The notes: a model not told the origin generated them from the letters alone. DNA of 26,730 bases from a virus (IMGVR_UViG_3300008108_001127:1-26730); one strand, 5' to 3'; shown: positions 6,535-26,234, counted from the first letter of the stretch. Numbers and translations are program-made.

Positions 6535-7776
6535 TTACTTTAAAAAAGAAAATTTTGTAAGTATTGGTCTTTTTCCGTATTTTTTTTCCATTAACTTCTG
6601 ATGAAGTTCCCAATTAATTATGGATTCATTAACCGGATCATCATCTTTTGCCATAGCATAAAGTTTACCAATTTTTTTCAACATTTTTGTTGCAATGTAA
6701 TTATATTTTTCACATTCATCCTGAAAAAATTTTAAAGGGTCATTCTCATATTTAATAATACTATTTATAATTTTTCTTCTCACTTTGTCAACATTTTCTT
6801 CATCGTCATCATCTTTCATAAATGAAGGTACGTGACCCATCATTTGTTTGAAAAGGTCTTTTAACATATCTACCTTATTACTAACCATTTTGTCAAATGT
6901 CTCTACCTTTATATTTGCAAGATTGACAAACACAAGCTCTAATACTCTTTTAATTTTTTCTTGATCTGTCATTTCATCCGTATCTTCTCCAATATGATCA
7001 AGTAATGCATCTACTCTGTCCATCCTTTCATATAAACCTTCAATAAGTTTTTCATATGTGAAATTTTTTATTTCAACTAATTCTTTATAAACTCTATTGT
7101 TTTCTAAAAATTCTCTAAACTGAGATTTTGTAATATTTTCACTTTTAAGTTTAGAAGCAATTTCAGTTGGTCTCACTAAATTTTCCGCAATAGAAATATA
7201 ATACATATACCTGAAAAACTTTTGATCTATTACAGGTATCCCAAACGTTGAGATTTTTTGTGTTGCAGTATATTTTACATCCCGACCAATTAAATCAATT
7301 TGTTTCGCCTGCTTATCGTACTTATGTTTTATTTCGTGAGCCAATGAAGCTATATGCTCATTTTTTTCTCTCATTAAAGTTTCGTACAACTGATTAGGTT
7401 CCCAAGATGATGATACCGCATATGTTATTGATAAAGAAGCATTCGTTGATGGTTTAATTTTCTTCATCATAATTTTTCTATCAAACATAAATGTCTGAGC
7501 CATCCCCATCGATAAAATATCTGGTTCACCATCATATTCATCAAATTCTTTTACGTTAACTGTTAATTCATAATGATCAATAACTATTTTTTTATTATAA
7601 CCTAACTCAATGTCTAAATCACCATCAAAATTATATTCTTCTTGTTTGGTATTAATTGATTGAATATCTTTAGATACTATCTCAAATAATTTTTCGGCAG
7701 CATCAAGAATGTTATCAGGAACACCTAACGCTTCATTAATAATTTTACACTGACTTTCTGTTATAATAATTTTCAT
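6535..7776 (-). CDS. Zincin-like metalloprotease candidate with N-terminal MKIIITESQ
   Basis: This is a 413-residue soluble protein. HEIKHKYD at residues 147-154 fits the HExxH zinc motif, and a downstream segment AENLVRPTEIAS (197-208) offers Glu198 and Glu205 as a third ligand, as in gluzincins. A long helical, acidic C-terminal region (about 250-400) follows. The first nine residues are nearly identical to those of the sigma factor at 9829, although the rest is unrelated, so they may be a shared tag. The ATG is preceded at 3 bases by a TATTTATT box, and a strong hairpin lies between it and the upstream gene. It is probably a single-gene transcript. Substrate and timing are unknown; a virion or maturation role is a guess. 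Confidence 0.75.
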   Translation of the reverse strand: MKIIITESQCKIINEALGVPDNILDAAEKLFEIVSKDIQSINTKQEEYNFDGDLDIELGYNKKIVIDHYELTVNVKEFDEYDGEPDILSMGMAQTFMFDRKIMMKKIKPSTNASLSITYAVSSSWEPNQLYETLMREKNEHIASLAHEIKHKYDKQAKQIDLIGRDVKYTATQKISTFGIPVIDQKFFRYMYYISIAENLVRPTEIASKLKSENITKSQFREFLENNRVYKELVEIKNFTYEKLIEGLYERMDRVDALLDHIGEDTDEMTDQEKIKRVLELVFVNLANIKVETFDKMVSNKVDMLKDLFKQMMGHVPSFMKDDDDEENVDKVRRKIINSIIKYENDPLKFFQDECEKYNYIATKMLKKIGKLYAMAKDDDPVNESIINWELHQKLMEKKYGKRPILTKFSFLK

Positions 7777-7779
7777 ATT

Positions 7780-7787
7780 AATAAATA
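7780..7787 (-). promoter_or_regulatory. TATTTATT box 3 bases before the 7776 start
   Basis: Coding-strand TATTTATT, then AAT, then ATG. The spacing is the same as at 9818-9825 (sigma factor) and 13637-13644 (DUF192). So close to the ATG it may be a translation-start context or a promoter for a leaderless message. Confidence 0.4.
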
Positions 7788-7789
7788 TA

Positions 7790-7820
7790 TTGGGGTTATT
7801 AAATTATCCAATAACCCCAA
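7790..7820 (-). terminator. Hairpin terminator after the metallophosphoesterase gene
   Basis: Perfect 11-bp stem TTGGGGTTATT / AATAACCCCAA with a 9-base loop that contains the stop codon of the 7804-8457 gene. Downstream on the minus strand the sequence is AT-rich but has no pure T run, so it may be a partial terminator or an mRNA-end stabiliser. Confidence 0.6.
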
Positions 7821-8457
7821 CTAAATCATCTAAATGGTGATCACCTTCCATTTCAGGAACAATTTTTCTTTTATCCATCATATGTACAATTTCAGTTATA
7901 CTATATGGATATAGATTGTTACCATCAACGCCAACATCTAATCTTTTACCCTTACCCCATTTTCTACTTGCAGGTAAGTGAACGTGACCATGAAGATGTA
8001 TAACACCTTTATTAAGACCATTCCAACTTTCAAACGGATAATGTGTCATAACAAAATCAGCACCATCTATGTGGACTTGGAGGTAATCACTTACAGATAA
8101 AAACATATCTCTTATGTTTTCTCTATTATTTCTTATATGTTGATCATGATTACCCATCACTAAATGAATATTCTTACACACCAATCGATCCAAGAAAATC
8201 CTAATACTTTCAAAACCACCGAATGCAACATCACCCAACATAATTAATGTGTCGTTTTGTCCAACTTTTGAATTTATGTTATCCACTAAAACATTATTCA
8301 TTAGATCTATTGTATGAAAATCTCTTGTATTATTAAGAGGAATCTCACCATCTTGGGTTCTCCAATTTGTTACACCTCTACAAATATTTTTATGGTTATA
8401 ATGCGGATCCGATGTAACCCACACTCTACCTGTTGTTAATATTTTATCAAATTTCAT
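7804..8457 (-). CDS. Calcineurin-like metallophosphoesterase
   Basis: This is a phosphoesterase of the calcineurin-like superfamily with a dinuclear metal centre. All motifs are visible in order: DPHYNH (17-22), GD (75-76), GNHD (102-105), THYP (138-141), HGHVH (156-160) and DVGVDGN (about 174). At 217 aa it is the usual size of the small phage members. Known members hydrolyse phosphodiesters, nucleotides or RNA ends; the substrate here cannot be told. It lies 11 bases downstream of the second KWC gene and in the same transcript as the P-loop kinase, which is consistent with an RNA-end or nucleotide-processing role (inference). Confidence 0.9.
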   Translation of the reverse strand: MKFDKILTTGRVWVTSDPHYNHKNICRGVTNWRTQDGEIPLNNTRDFHTIDLMNNVLVDNINSKVGQNDTLIMLGDVAFGGFESIRIFLDRLVCKNIHLVMGNHDQHIRNNRENIRDMFLSVSDYLQVHIDGADFVMTHYPFESWNGLNKGVIHLHGHVHLPASRKWGKGKRLDVGVDGNNLYPYSITEIVHMMDKRKIVPEMEGDHHLDDLVGVIG

Positions 8458-8468
8458 ATTCTTTTTAT

Positions 8469-9377
8469 TTAAGGTAAATCAATTGATTCATCTGACGTAT
8501 ACATATATTCTCTTAGATACTTTTCAAAATCAACATAATCGGGAGAACTGTAAGTTCTATATACATCATTATGGGAATCAGTATTTATGTAACCCATATA
8601 ACCTCCGGTCAAATTTAGTGGACCCGTACTATTGCTGTTTAATAAATTTCTCACTCTATCAAGAATGTTATCCGAACCCAAATTATGTGGGATAATCTTA
8701 TTATTATCCGGTAGTAAATCCCATATTGATTCTTCTTTTTGTAATTCAGGTATTACCACTGACCATATTTCCTGAGGTATATTTAATAATAATGGACTTG
8801 TCTCACTATCATCAGACAACCACGCCTTTAAATCTTTATTATCCGTTTTATCTCTAGAGATCGCATATTTAACATCCGTACTTCTATTGATCACATAAAT
8901 AATTTTATAATTCTCAACATAGTTATTCCAATATTTTTCTTCAGTTATACACCATTTAGTATTTGCACCATATAACTTTGCCGCCTCATAACTTAATGGT
9001 ATCATAACTAACCATTCCCCATATTCAAGTAATTTTTTGGTTTGTTTTTCCAACTCTTTTAATCTGACAATTTCTTTAGCCTTATTAACCTCATTTTTTA
9101 AAGTCCTAAAGTCGGTATGTTGACTAATATCGTTTTTCTCAATTCTTTTTGCCTTACAATGTATTTCAAACTCATTTAAAGTTTCAACATTTTCTTCACC
9201 AAAAAAATCAACCCCAATACCATATCGTATGTCAATATTATCATACCACGTTTTTAATTTTTTAATTAAAAACTCAGAATATTTATACGTATCGGTAGGA
9301 TCTATCATACCAATAAGATCTATAATGGTAATGTTTAATTCAGGATGTTGTTCTTTTAATCTATCTAATCTACTCAT
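8469..9377 (-). CDS. KWC-motif protein 2, function unknown, 302 aa
   Basis: A paralogue of the protein at 2280-3314: the core IPLSYEAAKLYGANTKWCIT carries Cys143, followed by an aromatic stretch (YWNNYVENY) and IIYVINRST. Upstream helices also match (EENVETLNEF, KNDIS). The C-terminal third differs from its relative and includes an Asn/Ser/Gly/Tyr-rich segment (about 245-280). No known enzyme family fits. It sits 2 bases after the P-loop kinase gene and 11 before the metallophosphoesterase, so the three are one operon under the host-type promoter at 9786-9816. Confidence 0.85.
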   Translation of the reverse strand: MSRLDRLKEQHPELNITIIDLIGMIDPTDTYKYSEFLIKKLKTWYDNIDIRYGIGVDFFGEENVETLNEFEIHCKAKRIEKNDISQHTDFRTLKNEVNKAKEIVRLKELEKQTKKLLEYGEWLVMIPLSYEAAKLYGANTKWCITEEKYWNNYVENYKIIYVINRSTDVKYAISRDKTDNKDLKAWLSDDSETSPLLLNIPQEIWSVVIPELQKEESIWDLLPDNNKIIPHNLGSDNILDRVRNLLNSNSTGPLNLTGGYMGYINTDSHNDVYRTYSSPDYVDFEKYLREYMYTSDESIDLP

Positions 9378-9379
9378 AA

Positions 9380-9781
9380 CTACAAATTTATTTCAAAACG
9401 ATTTCTCATCGAGGTTAATGTTTCTTCGGGTACATTGTGCTCGTTAACACCTCCGTGTCTATTTTCCACAATTATAGAAAAAACTTTATATTCAAAATAT
9501 TCCGCCATTTCAAAATATGGTTTCATTTCCCATTCTTGAGTGAATGTGTTTGAAACAACAATTACATTATTTAATAACGCAGTATGATTTAATAACATTG
9601 CAGTATAAACACTATCTTGACACCATTTATGGGCTTCTTTAATTTTAGATATATCAAATTTATATTCCCCATCTTTCATAAAAAACATATCAGTTTCAAA
9701 ATGAGTACCACCTAAAGATTTAGCAAATGTGGATTTACCAGATCCTGGAATTCCACGAACTATATACAATATTTTTTCCAT
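9380..9781 (-). CDS. P-loop kinase of the AAA_33 / N4BP2-like type, 133 aa
   Basis: Residues 10-18 are the Walker A loop GIPGSGKST, followed by a conserved-looking acidic position (ETDMFF, about 29-34) and NVIVVSNTF (about 73), where such kinases place the second acidic or polar strand. An Arg-containing tail (HNVPEETLTSMRNRF) is typical of polynucleotide/zeta-toxin-like kinases related to the N4BP2 5'-OH kinase. A phosphate transfer to a nucleic-acid end or nucleotide is likely but the substrate is not shown. It is the first gene of a three-gene operon. Its ATG is only 5 bases from the -7 box of its promoter, so the message may be leaderless. Confidence 0.85.
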   Translation of the reverse strand: MEKILYIVRGIPGSGKSTFAKSLGGTHFETDMFFMKDGEYKFDISKIKEAHKWCQDSVYTAMLLNHTALLNNVIVVSNTFTQEWEMKPYFEMAEYFEYKVFSIIVENRHGGVNEHNVPEETLTSMRNRFEINL

Positions 9782-9785
9782 ATCA

Positions 9786-9816
9786 CAAAGATATGAATTT
9801 TTTTTTCAATAAACAA
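9786..9816 (-). promoter_or_regulatory. Bacteroidota-type housekeeping promoter for the kinase operon
   Basis: On the coding strand TTG (9814-9816), a 20-base spacer, then TATCTTTG (9786-9793). This fits the Bacteroidota sigma-A consensus TTG-N19-21-TAnnTTTG. The start codon is at 9781. Confidence 0.75.
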
Positions 9817-9817
9817 C

Positions 9818-9825
9818 TATTTATT
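9818..9825 (+). promoter_or_regulatory. TATTTATT box 3 bases before the sigma-factor start
   Basis: TATTTATT, then GTT, then ATG at 9829. The same 13-base string TATTTATTGTTAT precedes the acidic protein that starts at 20040. Candidate phage promoter or start-context element. Confidence 0.4.
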
Positions 9826-9828
9826 GTT

Positions 9829-10389
9829 ATGAAAATCATTTTAACTGAGTCACAATATGAACACTTAATAAGTGAAGGATTTAATTTTGATCTTGAATAT
9901 AAAAGGTTATACCCAAAAATATTTAGACAGATTTGTTTAAGATATGCAAACGGAGACAAAGAAAAAGCAAATGATTTTTGTCAATTAGGTTTTATAAAGG
10001 TTCACCAAAAAATGGGAATGTATGACGGTTCAGGTAGCCTTGAAGGTTGGATTCAACGTATTATAAAAAATACAATTATTGATGAATTAAGAAAAGAAAA
10101 AAGATCTCCAAAAAGAAAAGATGTTGATTTCGGTCGTGAAGATTTAGGTCTTGAGGATATGCCAAATGAAGAACCTATGTTTTCTATGTCCGATATTAAA
10201 GATGCTATGGAAACTTTATCACCATCATATAAAAGAATTTTTAATATGTATTATTTTGAAGATATGTCTCACCAAGAAATTGCAGATGAATTAGGAATTA
10301 GCGATGGTACATCAAAATCAAATTTATTTAAAGCAAAAGCCAACGTTAAATCTTATTTGGAAAAGTTAAATAAAAAAAGGGAAGGTTAA
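9829..10389 (+). CDS. ECF-like RNA polymerase sigma factor with N-terminal MKIILTESQ
   Basis: A 186-residue sigma-70-family protein with region 2 (LYPKIFRQICLRYANGDKEK, with the following DFCQLGFIKVHQKMGMYDG and the GSLEGWIQRIIKNTIIDELRK stretch taken as a whole) and region 4 (LSPSYKRIFNMYYFEDMSHQ, then EIADELGISDGTSKSNLFKA as helix-turn-helix). There is no region 1.1 or 3, so it is ECF-like. It would direct host RNA polymerase to phage promoters. An upstream in-frame start (9727) is possible, but it would run through the divergent promoter; the ATG at 9829 gives the MKIILTESQ start shared with the protease at 6535. It is alone and rightward between leftward operons. Its targets might be the TATTTATW boxes, one of which precedes it. 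Confidence 0.9.
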   Translation: MKIILTESQYEHLISEGFNFDLEYKRLYPKIFRQICLRYANGDKEKANDFCQLGFIKVHQKMGMYDGSGSLEGWIQRIIKNTIIDELRKEKRSPKRKDVDFGREDLGLEDMPNEEPMFSMSDIKDAMETLSPSYKRIFNMYYFEDMSHQEIADELGISDGTSKSNLFKAKANVKSYLEKLNKKREG

Positions 10390-13208: not shown

Positions 13209-13628
13209 TTATTTTAAATTTTTTACAATAATTTTGTAAAATTCATCATTTTTTTTGTCTAAAGGTAAATTATCAATACTAAAATAACCACATTCACTAT
13301 GTTCACCACCATCTTTGGCATTTTCTAAATCAGGATAGATCTCCTCATCAACCTCTAAAGAATATACATACATAAATCCTTTTAAATAGGTTCCATCTTT
13401 ATTAAAACGATCAATAAACCCAACTAAATCTAAATTACCATTAACTTTAAGATTTGTTTCCTCATAAAACTCTCTACGAGCCGCCTCTTCAGGACTTTCC
13501 CCTTCTTCTATCCCTCCACCGGGTATTGACCAAACTCCAGGTAAAGTATTATCATTACTTCTTTTACATAACAATACCTTATCATTACATTTAACCAATA
13601 TACCGGAAAATCTTTTGTTTTTCTTCAT
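13209..13628 (-). CDS. Nudix hydrolase, 139 aa
   Basis: Hydrolyses a nucleoside diphosphate linked to another group. The Nudix box is complete: G38, E44 and REFYEE at 52-57 in GGIEEGESPEEAARREFYEE. It resembles MutT-like NTP pyrophosphohydrolases (LLCKRSNDNTLPGVWSIPGG). The ATG at 13628 (MKKNKRFSG) is chosen because a longer in-frame start at 13709 would run through the divergent DUF192 gene. The two starts are only 19 bases apart around a palindromic TATTTATAAATA. Substrate unknown; nucleotide-pool cleaning or cap/NAD-type RNA turnover are both known phage uses. Confidence 0.92.
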   Translation of the reverse strand: MKKNKRFSGILVKCNDKVLLCKRSNDNTLPGVWSIPGGGIEEGESPEEAARREFYEETNLKVNGNLDLVGFIDRFNKDGTYLKGFMYVYSLEVDEEIYPDLENAKDGGEHSECGYFSIDNLPLDKKNDEFYKIIVKNLK

Positions 13629-13636
13629 ACCTTCTA

Positions 13637-13648
13637 TATTTATAAATA
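13637..13648. promoter_or_regulatory. Palindromic TATTTATAAATA between divergent Nudix and DUF192 genes
   Basis: The 12-base perfect palindrome presents TATTTATA on both strands, 3 bases before the DUF192 ATG and 12 bases before the Nudix ATG. It could serve both genes as one shared element. Confidence 0.45.
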
Positions 13649-18510: not shown

Positions 18511-20040
18511 TTAATCAACTCTAAAGACAACGTAATTTGTATCGTTGATTCTAATTTCATCGTAAGTCCCATCATAATTTGCTAATATACCGTAATCTGA
18601 ATCACGAATTAAATCTTCTTCTAATGATCTTTTATCCACAAAATTTTCATAATCCATACCATAATCGTCTAACCATCTAATCGGGTCGTCTTTAATTTCA
18701 TCTAATCTTTCTTCTACCTCTCTTTCAACATCATCTTCATCAGGATCTCCTTCAGGATTATCTTTAATAGTTTCTATGTCATCTTCAATATCCACAAAAC
18801 GATCCTCAATTTCACTTATTCTTTCCGCAATATTTTCAGACATTTCATCCCAATCTATATCTTTGTATACGGGATTTTTTAAAGTTGGTGTCCCATTTAG
18901 TAAAACAGTTTTACTTCCGTCTTGATTGGCAATTAAATTAATTTTGTTACCCGCACCATCTTTATATTCCCAATTATTCTCTCTATTAACAACAAATTCT
19001 AATGGTGGTATTATCCCATAATTAATTAAAAATAACTCACCCTGTAATTCAACTCTCTCAAATTTTAAATCATCTATTTGTTGTTCCTGATATCCAGATA
19101 TATCTCTTCTTACATCATAATTACTCGGATCATCATAGATCCATTGTCTTATCATATCCTCAAAATATTCCGCAACATCATCCCCGTCAATGTGATAAGA
19201 TAAAGTGTCTTTACTAAAATTACTTAAGTCATCTATCATATCTTTATAATAGTCCTGAAGAGATGTGTCGGCATCGTATTCCGTACCAACTGCATATACA
19301 TGACCATCAGCATCGGGATGAATTGATCTAAATGTATCCATTTCATAATGACTACCAAGAGGAATTAAACCATATACATCATTATTTTTAGATTTAAGTT
19401 CATCAATATCATATTGTAATTCATCATAATCATTTGTTAACTCATCAACCAAATCCGGATCTTCTTCAACATCAATTCTATCTTCGAGTTCCTGTAGTTT
19501 TTGTTCTAAACTTTTTAACTCTTCAATTTCATTCTCTTCTAACTCATCAATATCACCCTCATTAACCATAAATCGGAATACCGCATGAGCTCTTTCACCA
19601 GTATTATCGGTATCATTTAAATTCCATTCATCATCAATTCTTCTTTGATCCGCATCATCTCTTTCTTTTTGTCTTTTACGTCTTTCAATTTCTTCAGCAT
19701 ATGGTGTATTATAGTATGCACCAAGAGAATTGTATTCAACACCATTTAAACTTTTTATTTGTGTTCCAGCAATCGTGAGCTGACCATTTATGGTAATTTC
19801 ACCCAAACTTTTTATTGGTTTACCGTTTATATTTACAGGACCATTAACTCTAAGTTTTTTACCTTTAAACATAGGTAATTTAGGTATTGCCTGAGCTTGA
19901 TAATTAACAGATCTTAATAACATATAATACTGATCAGGTGTGATATCATAATATTGATCATCACCTTCAGTTTCTTCAAATATTATAGTTTTAATTAAAT
20001 TAACTAAATCACCACCTTTTATTTCTACTATTCTTGACAT
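18511..20040 (-). CDS. Very acidic repeat-bearing protein, 509 aa, unknown
   Basis: ATG at 20040 (MSRIVEIKGGDLVNL); an in-frame start at 20058 would only add six residues. Residues about 55-105 hold short strand repeats of an open beta-helix or LRR-like type (LRVNGPVNINGKPIKSLG, ITINGQLTIAGTQIKSLNG). A basic-acidic helical segment follows (RRKRQKERDDADQRRIDDEW), then a long Asp/Glu-rich coiled-coil-like region (about 165-215). The C-terminal half is again extremely acidic (EDDIETIKDNPEGDPDEDD). No enzyme motif is seen. A TATTTATT box lies 5 bases before the ATG. The rightward protein at 20327 is also acidic and contains a similar D-D-V-A-x-Y/S helix, but homology is unproven. Confidence 0.8.
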   Translation of the reverse strand: MSRIVEIKGGDLVNLIKTIIFEETEGDDQYYDITPDQYYMLLRSVNYQAQAIPKLPMFKGKKLRVNGPVNINGKPIKSLGEITINGQLTIAGTQIKSLNGVEYNSLGAYYNTPYAEEIERRKRQKERDDADQRRIDDEWNLNDTDNTGERAHAVFRFMVNEGDIDELEENEIEELKSLEQKLQELEDRIDVEEDPDLVDELTNDYDELQYDIDELKSKNNDVYGLIPLGSHYEMDTFRSIHPDADGHVYAVGTEYDADTSLQDYYKDMIDDLSNFSKDTLSYHIDGDDVAEYFEDMIRQWIYDDPSNYDVRRDISGYQEQQIDDLKFERVELQGELFLINYGIIPPLEFVVNRENNWEYKDGAGNKINLIANQDGSKTVLLNGTPTLKNPVYKDIDWDEMSENIAERISEIEDRFVDIEDDIETIKDNPEGDPDEDDVEREVEERLDEIKDDPIRWLDDYGMDYENFVDKRSLEEDLIRDSDYGILANYDGTYDEIRINDTNYVVFRVD

Positions 20041-20045
20041 ATAAC

Positions 20046-20053
20046 AATAAATA
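20046..20053 (-). promoter_or_regulatory. TATTTATT box before the 20040 start
   Basis: Coding strand TATTTATT, then GTTAT, then ATG. It shares the 13-base TATTTATTGTTAT with the sigma-factor leader. Confidence 0.4.
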
Positions 20054-24261: not shown

Positions 24262-26211
24262 TTAGAATTTCCCTAATCCAGTACAGTGTTGTTTCATATC
24301 TTCAGGGAAATGAATAAACCAAAAATCCTCATCAGGTGTCATATATTCTTCTAATTTTTTAGGTATCTTGATATTAGGATTTGATCCCATAATTGAAAAG
24401 AATTCTAAACAAGTTAATTTAGAAATAGATTCAGGTAACTTATCTAACTCAGGGTTGTTTGTTAAATTTAAAAATGATAATTGTCTACAGTTTCCAATAC
24501 TTTCAGGTATCGACTTAACCATATTATCAATTACCAAAGTTGTAAGTTCAGTAAATTTTCCAATACTTTCGGGTAGATCCATTGCGATGACATCATTTGA
24601 TTTATTTTCCATATTAATGAATTCAACATTATCAGGAATTGAATCAAAATATTCCTCAAAACCAAATAGTGCAATGTATTTAGATGCATCATCTTTAGGA
24701 TATTCCAATTGAACAAATGTTCCTGTATCCTTAGATGTTAACTCTTGAGCGTATTTTCTTTTAAGTTGTCTGAAATACGGTCTCATTTCTTTGGTTTTAA
24801 TTGTCTCAATATCGCTTGAAGTTAACTGACTTAATGTTTTTGTAAGTAATTTTTCTTTTTTCTTTGAAACATAATAAGACATAGCCCCATCTTTAAGGAC
24901 CTTAACCATTCCACCATTTAACTCAGTTCCTAAACCAATATATTTCTTTTGTAGTTCTTCAGGTAAATTAGCAAATATTTCAACACCGTTACTCATGTTA
25001 GTGAAATCGGGACCTCTTAATTCCATCCATAATTCAACTTCTTCAACACTACCTAACTCTTGTATCGGATCGTTAGTTCTTAGGTTATAAGATTTATATC
25101 TCTGCATTTTTTCTTGATCCTCATTACTAAATGGTTTTGGTTCAAGATATTCTTTTTTACCTTGTAATGCCGGAACCTTTCTAGTAATTTCGTCCCAATC
25201 AATTTCTGTAGCTCCGGCATATCTACCTGAATTGGTACCATCCGCCAATCTCATTCCTCCCCATCTATCAACAAGGACAACAACAGCATAATTAACATCT
25301 GATTCAGGTAAATTCTTACTAATAACATAATATAATGTTAAGTTTTGATTTAATCTATAATTGTAGTAGTAATTACTTGATCCTTCCCAAGATGTACACC
25401 ATCTTCTATCGGGAGCGTGTTTTTTTCTAATATTAATACATTGTTGTTTTTCATCAGGAGCAAAAATTAATATGTTATCATCTTCATATGCAATATCAAC
25501 GTCATCTAAATCAATATCAGGTAAACTATATTCATCTTCACCCATTGGTGTGTAACCATCAACCAAATGCTCAAACTCATCAAATGTCATAAACGCAGTT
25601 AATTTAGCATTTAATGGAATTGATTCGAAGTGTCTCACAAATCTTTTAACCCTAGGAAGAATAACTGTTAATGGATCATCATCAGGATTATCCTTCATAA
25701 ATTTTTCTGTCATTCTTTTTGTTAATTCATTCTCACCATTGTCATCAAATCTACCAAAAAATCTATTAACTAAATCATTTAATTGAGATGGGTTTAAATC
25801 GGTAACATCTCTTTTGAATAACTTTTGATCGGGGAATAATGTTTTTAACTCAAAATATTTTTTAATATTTGTTTTAACTAATTGTAAGTCAACACCTTTG
25901 TGTTTAGTCACAAATTCTTGTGCAATACTCTCAAGATCTTTTTTGGTTTTTTGCTTTGTGGATTTATCCGCAACAAGTTGCTTTACTTTTTCATAACTAT
26001 GTTTGAATATATCTTTATCTTCATTATCAAATGCCGCTTTAAATCTTTCAAAATCAGATATTGTTTTCTTGATTTCATCCTCAGTATCATCAGTTTCTTT
26101 AGTAAACTTATCCAATAATTTCTTTACTGTGGATTCAGGATACTCCAATAATATTTTTTTAATATTTACGTTTTCTTTAACGACTTTTGATAAAATTCCA
26201 ACTAATTCCAT
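24262..26211 (-). CDS. KWC-motif protein 3 with C-terminal leucine-rich repeats, 649 aa
   Basis: The N-terminal ~200 residues are helical and charged. A diverged KWC core follows: EDDNILIFAPDEKQQCINIR then KKHAPDRRWCTSWEGSSNYY, with Cys272, then NQNLTLYYVISKNLPES. Compared with its two paralogues, TKWC has become RRWC. A long linker leads to leucine-rich repeats (about 535-625), such as LPESIGKFTELTTLVIDNM, IPESIGNCRQLSFLNLTNN and LPESISKLTCLEFFSI, suggesting protein binding. The whole is one intact frame. The TATTTATA box at 26227-26234 is 15 bases before the ATG. A sensor or virion role is possible, but nothing in the sequence decides it. Confidence 0.85.
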   Translation of the reverse strand: MELVGILSKVVKENVNIKKILLEYPESTVKKLLDKFTKETDDTEDEIKKTISDFERFKAAFDNEDKDIFKHSYEKVKQLVADKSTKQKTKKDLESIAQEFVTKHKGVDLQLVKTNIKKYFELKTLFPDQKLFKRDVTDLNPSQLNDLVNRFFGRFDDNGENELTKRMTEKFMKDNPDDDPLTVILPRVKRFVRHFESIPLNAKLTAFMTFDEFEHLVDGYTPMGEDEYSLPDIDLDDVDIAYEDDNILIFAPDEKQQCINIRKKHAPDRRWCTSWEGSSNYYYNYRLNQNLTLYYVISKNLPESDVNYAVVVLVDRWGGMRLADGTNSGRYAGATEIDWDEITRKVPALQGKKEYLEPKPFSNEDQEKMQRYKSYNLRTNDPIQELGSVEEVELWMELRGPDFTNMSNGVEIFANLPEELQKKYIGLGTELNGGMVKVLKDGAMSYYVSKKKEKLLTKTLSQLTSSDIETIKTKEMRPYFRQLKRKYAQELTSKDTGTFVQLEYPKDDASKYIALFGFEEYFDSIPDNVEFINMENKSNDVIAMDLPESIGKFTELTTLVIDNMVKSIPESIGNCRQLSFLNLTNNPELDKLPESISKLTCLEFFSIMGSNPNIKIPKKLEEYMTPDEDFWFIHFPEDMKQHCTGLGKF

Positions 26212-26226
26212 ATTGACTTTTTTTAA

Positions 26227-26234
26227 TATAAATA
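26227..26234 (-). promoter_or_regulatory. TATTTATA box upstream of the 26211 start
   Basis: Coding strand TATTTATA followed by TTAAAAAAAG, nearly the same arrangement as at 3605-3612. Confidence 0.4.

Follow-up and report, generated by a model that had tools for sequence, protein, structure and literature searches.

The window analysed here is the whole of IMGVR_UViG_3300008108_001127:1-26730, a 26.7-kb viral fragment from IMG/VR with 31% G + C, in which the genes for a putative metallopeptidase with an HExxH motif and for a sigma factor begin with nearly the same nine residues. This shared start, MKII[I/L]TESQ followed by [L/I]xE, is in all likelihood a capsid-targeting propeptide in the style of phage T4, of a new sequence form and used on a much larger scale, which would be removed by the prohead protease. 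A wider proposal is held with moderate confidence: that a large clade of uncultivated jumbo phages has a genome-wide, readable code of interchangeable tags, that some of these phages inject a late-made sigma factor of the extracytoplasmic function (ECF) type to seize the host polymerase on entry, and that in one lineage a polyprotein sigma, together with a hydrophobic partner, is freed by the prohead protease.

Two genes with near-identical starts

The open reading frame (ORF) at 7776 (minus strand, 413 aa) begins MKIIITESQ, and the ORF at 9829 (plus strand, 186 aa) begins MKIILTESQ. For the sigma gene the conserved start is 9829; the 220-aa version proposed by the ORF caller, from 9727, is not conserved. 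No other pair among the 42 genes of the window agrees at more than three of the eight residues 2-9, and 0.0007 such pairs are expected in the window from N-terminal composition. The near-identity reported in an earlier note on this DNA is thus confirmed, and so is its remark that the codons differ: 8 positions are unlike over the first 27 nt, and serine is encoded by AGT in one gene and TCA in the other, which one synonymous change cannot connect. The same note called the HExxH protein a protease. The motif is present, and H147, E148 and H151 are invariant across 24 homologues, but no Pfam, PHROG or significant PDB-fold match was obtained, and none among named phages; the label is a reasonable guess rather than a result.

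Occurrence of the tag

Starts of the form MK-I-I-I/L-T-E-S-Q were termed class A, and those with the sister tag MKKIIRLTESDLTRIVKRVIKE class B. A degenerate DNA pattern for the class A start matches at least 120 stretches in IMG/VR viral contigs and only four in 257 Gb of bacterial and archaeal genomes, all in Bacteroidota, none of these four being the start of a gene longer than 50 aa. When grouped by the sequence that follows the tag, the 218 class A proteins form 66 families, which include the sigma factor, the HExxH protein, a lysozyme, a cell-wall hydrolase, a DHH protein, zinc ribbons, membrane proteins and many unknowns. The class B spelling was found on 47 families in the same jumbo-phage genomes, where MKELIRNILKE and MNLQETIRRILRE occur as further spellings. 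A short N-terminal peptide on otherwise unrelated proteins, the first defining feature of a T4-type capsid-targeting sequence (CTS), is therefore found on 66 + 47 families. By a loose tag pattern, 14-22 starts were counted per genome (G030, G016 and G005), a few of them probably by chance. A search for further starts of this type had been proposed in the earlier note, which would have dropped the idea of a tag had there been none; hundreds of proteins in relatives carry one.

Among named phages, protein tblastn searches with the bare tags gave no match, such short queries lying below the sensitivity of tblastn. Isolates with class A or B tags were not found, nor were these peptides in the literature searched. 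Flavobacterium phage immuto has no TESQ tags, though its capsid protein and protease sites are of the same kind; no tags were found in the crAss-like cr7_1 and a Lak fragment, and the RM378 sigma starts without one.

Three further observations concern tagged proteins. Fast-evolving proteins of about 100 aa, beginning MKIIITESQxxxLRR, carry the tag, mostly without LxE (class A families 10, 14, 16, 24, 29, 43, 52 and 56; in L048, L004, L070, L074, L083 and others). A 484-kb phage with a Gp23 head (LR756508 150001-200000, L290) has its own spelling, M[K/R]LSERKLRxIVKEE...VLxE, on several proteins. A tagged protein at L020:3588-4127 (minus) gives a sub-threshold PARP match (E 0.019) and is possibly an ADP-ribosyltransferase like the injected Alt of T4; analogues of Alt are not claimed, this match being their sole basis.

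End of the tag and exchange between proteins

The gp21 protease of T4 cleaves after L/I-X-E, and ten residues suffice as a CTS (PMC9026906). The [L/I]xE end positions were absent from the search pattern used to find the tags. Within +4 to +16 after the TE motif, LxE is present in 46 of the 66 class A families, against 13-22 in later intervals and 17 +/- 3.5 (maximum 29) after shuffling, and in 45 of the 47 class B families, against 5-10 in later intervals. It sits at +9/+10 in most site-bearing class A families. In class B, position +14 is glutamate in 91% and is preceded by [I/L/V]-x, the information content dropping from 3.0 bits at E(+14) to about 0.1 at +16. The tag accordingly ends in the L/I-x-E motif of a prohead protease, as a T4-type CTS does, and both window genes have the site.

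The homologues of the window proteins give the same picture (the arrow marks a predicted cut). Across 12 homologues of the sigma factor, M1, K2, I3, I4, E7, Q9 and E16 of the tag are invariant and the spacer between TESQ and LxE is of variable length; across the 24 homologues of the HExxH protein, E7, Q9 and E15 are invariant, and those with other tag spellings retain xxE↓AxGVP. Homologues of a 509-aa protein of the window bear differing N-terminal peptides of about 9-22 aa, all ending in [L/I/V]xE at the same place, with starts on one domain ranging from MKFINLLLE↓ to MSRIVEIKGGDLVNLIKTIIFE↓; in the window its gene starts at the ATG of 20040 rather than the TTG of 20058, with TATTTATT 5 nt upstream. 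Homologues of a 649-aa protein, from three jumbo phages, begin MKITSVLSNLITE↓Q, MRFQDLLRRVIVE↓Q and MAIRFTDILRDLIIE↓N.

At least nine families bear differing tags, each ending in LxE at the domain junction. In families pre-chosen for having a site, the junction site is present in 146 and absent in 5 class A proteins, with 84 and 1 for class B and 62 and 6 for other starts. In three contigs (L133:4051-5061, plus strand, and two further ones) the sigma factor is the C-terminal part of a 337-aa protein, composed of a class A tag, a hydrophobic domain (LLGDIVGVFDPTGIVDTANAISYW...), NESKIGNLLKE↓NVDF and the sigma, so that a tag-like site lies exactly at the boundary of the two domains. The tag, its modularity and swapping, and its [L/I]xE boundary can be read directly from the sequences.

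AlphaFold models were built on shallow alignments (12 and 24 sequences) and are taken as supporting evidence only. In the sigma factor, residues 1-5 and 7-16 have a predicted local distance difference test score (pLDDT) below 50, as do residues 1-10 of the HExxH protein, and an isolated helix spans tag residues 7-15/16 in both; the models suggest that the tag lies outside the folded domain. The earlier note had allowed for the opposite, that the start belongs to a folded N-terminal domain. On one such reading, the nine residues would form the opening strand and helix of a small domain inherited from a common ancestor. They could plausibly adopt a strand, a turn and a helix, and in some small proteins TESQ runs straight into a helix. 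Conservation stops, however, at the LxE boundary, the families show no other relationship, most of the tag scores under 50 in pLDDT in both models, and homologous domains bear unrelated peptides in its place; a folded domain is considered very improbable.

Prohead protease, capsid protein and head genes

The head clusters of tag-bearing contigs contain terminase, portal, protease, scaffold and major capsid protein (MCP). The protease belongs to Peptidase_S77 (Pfam, E 6.5e-24), the family of T4 gp21. Gp23 was found in 12 of the 16 class B contigs of at least 100 kb and in 10 of the 50 class A contigs, many of which are short fragments. The pro-region of the MCP ends in ENQASFLINE↓A and is positioned like the pro-site of T4 (LINE↓A in 12 of 13 cases, LIYE↓A in one), and its ENQxxxLIxE resembles TESQxxxLIxE of the class A tag. 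The agreement between MCP pro-site and tag extends to more distant Gp23 phages: in LR756508 the MCP ends in LLENQYQQLLKE↓A and the phage's own tag spelling is MKLTERKLRNLVKEVLKE. A protease of the gp21 family and a Gp23 whose predicted cut site has the motif of the tag, a further feature of a T4-type CTS, are thus found in relatives, and no testable defining feature of that class failed.

By their gene content the tag-bearing contigs are phages with T4-type heads. The hosts are probably Bacteroidota, because the named relatives by Gp23 are Flavobacterium phage immuto and RM378 and because of the four genome matches mentioned above. The window is linked to head genes by collinearity with G030 and G012, and by G018; its 75-kb relative shares with G030 a collinear block that leads from the window region to large late-type genes, and in G018, one 269-kb contig, Gp23, a T4-type portal and a tagged sigma occur together.

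A degron or secretion-like signal active in the infected cell would also be a short N-terminal peptide on unrelated proteins, as is generally typical of such systems. It would leave the prohead-type LxE boundary and the likeness to the MCP pro-site unexplained, and the peptide is charged and too short for a signal peptide; it is given next to no weight.

In a separate observation, G018 (IMGVR_UViG_3300032296_003307) has two Gp23 genes and two T4-type portals about 200 kb apart, which may be two head gene sets or a chimeric assembly.

Element upstream of tagged genes

The earlier note had placed TATTTATT three bases before both ATGs. It lies exactly there, but it is not specific to the two genes: it also precedes other ORFs and is part of a wider element, TATTTAT[A/T]. 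This occurs 20 times in the window, eight of them just upstream of ORF starts, among which are two further tag-like starts (18511-20040 and 24262-26211, both minus). In three genomes, 58-62% of tagged genes have the 7-mer TATTTAT in the 30 bp before their start, against 18-20% of other genes. Tag and element go together with an odds ratio of 6.2 (p 2e-11, a value on the optimistic side, since the choice of starts favoured the element and the three genomes are relatives of one another). The element stands 3-5 or 11-18 nt 5' of the ATG and is also seen ahead of genes for scaffold, prohead protease and probable tail proteins. Its place before head genes and its enrichment at tagged ones make it a probable late promoter, in a style related to that of T4. 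The late promoter of T4, TATAAATA, is read by gp55 with gp33 and gp45. Both are single AT-rich elements just 5' of late genes, head genes included; they differ in that the consensus here is TATTTAT[A/T] and two spacings are used. The spacing of 3-5 nt implies that the mRNA would be leaderless or nearly so.

An upstream element common to tagged genes is also what an effect at the DNA level would give, in which a cassette of promoter and start (TATTTATT...ATGAAAATT) is spread by recombination. Codon use is free to vary, serine being encoded by TCN in some genes and by AGY in others, many tagged genes are without the element, and many element-bearing genes are without the tag. This explanation was rejected on the codon evidence and has almost no chance of being correct.

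Sigma factors

The window sigma matches Pfam Sigma70_r2 (49 bits) and Sigma70_r4_2 (60 bits), and also Sigma70_ECF; no region 1.1 or region 3 model of Pfam matches. It has, that is, the regions 2 and 4 without 1.1 and 3 that define ECF-type sigma-70 factors. In G044, the 75-kb relative, two proteins match sigma-70 region 2: an untagged RpoD-like sigma of about 266 aa, without the late element and present in nearly all related contigs, and the tagged ECF-like sigma. The tagged sigma of G018 begins MKIIIKESQLPLLLE↓N and has TATTTATA upstream. Tag and late element occur only on the accessory ECF-like sigma, the two other, core sigma factors being untagged. On this evidence, the simplest reading is that the tagged sigma would be made late, packed, and act on the host polymerase at the next entry.

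An untagged protein of about 250 aa in G030 (229117-229866, plus) gives a weak match to the T4-type late sigma family, and has apparent relatives in G005, G018 and G054.

Proposed mechanism and its weak points

A targeting, packaging or cleavage tag, and with it a sigma factor carried in the virion, had been raised as a possibility in the earlier note. Such a tag is supported by the [L/I]xE end, the S77 protease, the Gp23 pro-site and the shared late-type promoter; the protease, the matching Gp23 site in relatives and the promoter association are apparent on sequence comparison, and we infer that tagged proteins are docked, cleaved, packaged and ejected, as well as what the sigma factor does. 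The tag would sit on accessory proteins that jumbo phages with T4-type heads make late, from TATTTAT[A/T] promoters. The N-terminal peptide would dock them in the core of the prohead, and may do so by imitating the close of the MCP pro-region (ENQxxxLINE), and the S77 prohead protease would then cleave after [L/I]xE. The mature proteins would remain in the head and enter the next host together with the DNA. For the window phage, this cargo would comprise the ECF-like sigma factor, the HExxH protein, the 509-aa protein and probably the 649-aa protein, and the injected sigma would redirect host RNA polymerase at once.

Several points weigh against this proposal. Virion proteomics of these phages was not found (the Baltic Flavobacterium phage paper contains none for immuto), and packaging and cleavage rest on inference. 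Head genes are present neither in the window nor in its longest relatives (72 and 75 kb), some tagged proteins are lysozymes or cell-wall hydrolases rather than obvious head cargo, and no clear likeness in sequence connects the tag with the T4 CTS. The LxE site is absent in about one third of class A families, notably in the proteins of about 100 aa beginning MKIIITESQxxxLRR. In T4, targeting without processing is tolerated (PMC9026906), so that families without LxE do not refute targeting.

The same gaps could be read in favour of a permanent docking tag for another phage structure (a replication or late transcription complex, a membrane site or a phage nucleus), LxE being part of a helix: the one third of families without LxE, the peptidoglycan hydrolases and the predicted helix across residues 7-15/16 would all fit. 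Yet tags of differing sequence and length interchange while retaining [L/I]xE at the junction, the same motif closes the MCP pro-region, a tag-like LLKE↓ links the two domains of the polyprotein, and the nucleus-forming jumbo phages are another group (PMC7824862). Permanent docking is considered unlikely, though less so than the alternatives dealt with above.

Comparison with known systems

The capsid-targeting propeptide proposed here resembles the T4 CTS (on IPI, IPII, IPIII and Alt, cut by gp21) in being a short N-terminal peptide on otherwise different proteins, with a gp21-type L/I-x-E end, an S77 prohead protease, a Gp23 with a matching pro-site and late expression. The architecture (short peptide, helix, LxE) is the same, without sequence identity, in peptides whose shortness leaves no room for statistics on their similarity. 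Unlike the T4 CTS, it is a TESQ / LTESDL helix with several interchangeable spellings per genome, about 15-20 recognisable tagged proteins are present per jumbo phage instead of a handful, the tagged set includes a sigma factor, and some members are without LxE.

In phiKZ, 201phi2-1 and SPN3US, ejected head proteins likewise have N-terminal propeptides cut after Glu, and gp53 and gp54 of SPN3US have the identical start MANFVKSKLARESVE (PMC5694885). phiKZ differs in its cleavage motif (S/A-x-E), in propeptides often longer than 100 aa, and in packaging a whole RNA polymerase rather than a sigma factor. As with the virion RNA polymerases of N4 and phiKZ, transcription machinery for early genes would be carried in the virion; unlike in those phages, a sigma factor alone would be carried and would partner host RNA polymerase. 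Recruitment of host RNA polymerase by a phage sigma is also the case in Gp23-type (group 2) jumbo phages (PMC7824862). The phages studied here have an RpoD-like and possibly a gp55-like type, both of them untagged, in contrast to the extra ECF-like sigma, which has a packaging-type tag and a late-type promoter.

If the proposal is true, the internal virion cargo of jumbo phages without isolates is readable from sequence, every late gene that opens in this way points to an injected protein, and many unknown genes become candidates for host-takeover and counter-defence proteins. A virion-borne sigma would be a third route of takeover in the first minutes, beside carried polymerases and polymerase-modifying enzymes. 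The tags could also be used for loading proteins into large phage heads.

Features of the window

Table 1. Predicted tags, mature proteins and upstream elements (positions in the window; arrows mark predicted cuts)
Feature	Position	Strand	Remark
Sigma factor N-terminal tag, MKIILTESQYEHLISE	9829..9876	+	predicted cut after E16 (ISE↓G)
Predicted mature ECF-like sigma factor, sigma-70 regions 2 + 4	9877..10386	+	Pfam
TATTTATT element, 3 nt before sigma start	9818..9825	+	probable late promoter
HExxH protein N-terminal tag, MKIIITESQCKIINE	7732..7776	-	predicted cut after E15 (INE↓A)
Predicted mature HExxH protein, putative zinc metallopeptidase	6538..7731	-	H147 E148 H151
TATTTATT element, 3 nt before HExxH protein start	7780..7787	-	
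Third predicted tag (class-B-like), MSRIVEIKGGDLVNLIKTIIFE↓E, on 509-aa protein (18511-20040)	19975..20040	-	
TATTTATT element before 509-aa gene	20046..20053	-	
Fourth candidate tag, MELVGILSKVVKENVNIKKILLE, on 649-aa protein (24262-26211)	26143..26211	-	
TATTTATA element, 15 nt upstream of 649-aa gene	26227..26234	-	

Two further promoter-like sequences were observed in the window. TATTTATAAATA (13637-13648) reads as the late element on both strands and is a possible bidirectional late promoter; it is flanked by a NUDIX-like gene (13209-13628, minus) and a DUF192-like gene (start 13648, plus). The pattern TA-N2-TTTG (TATCTTTG, TACCTTTG), the promoter type of host Bacteroidota, lies upstream of the minus-strand genes starting at 9781, 11676, 13013 and 23920, and its position before several untagged genes suggests that early or middle genes may use host-type promoters.

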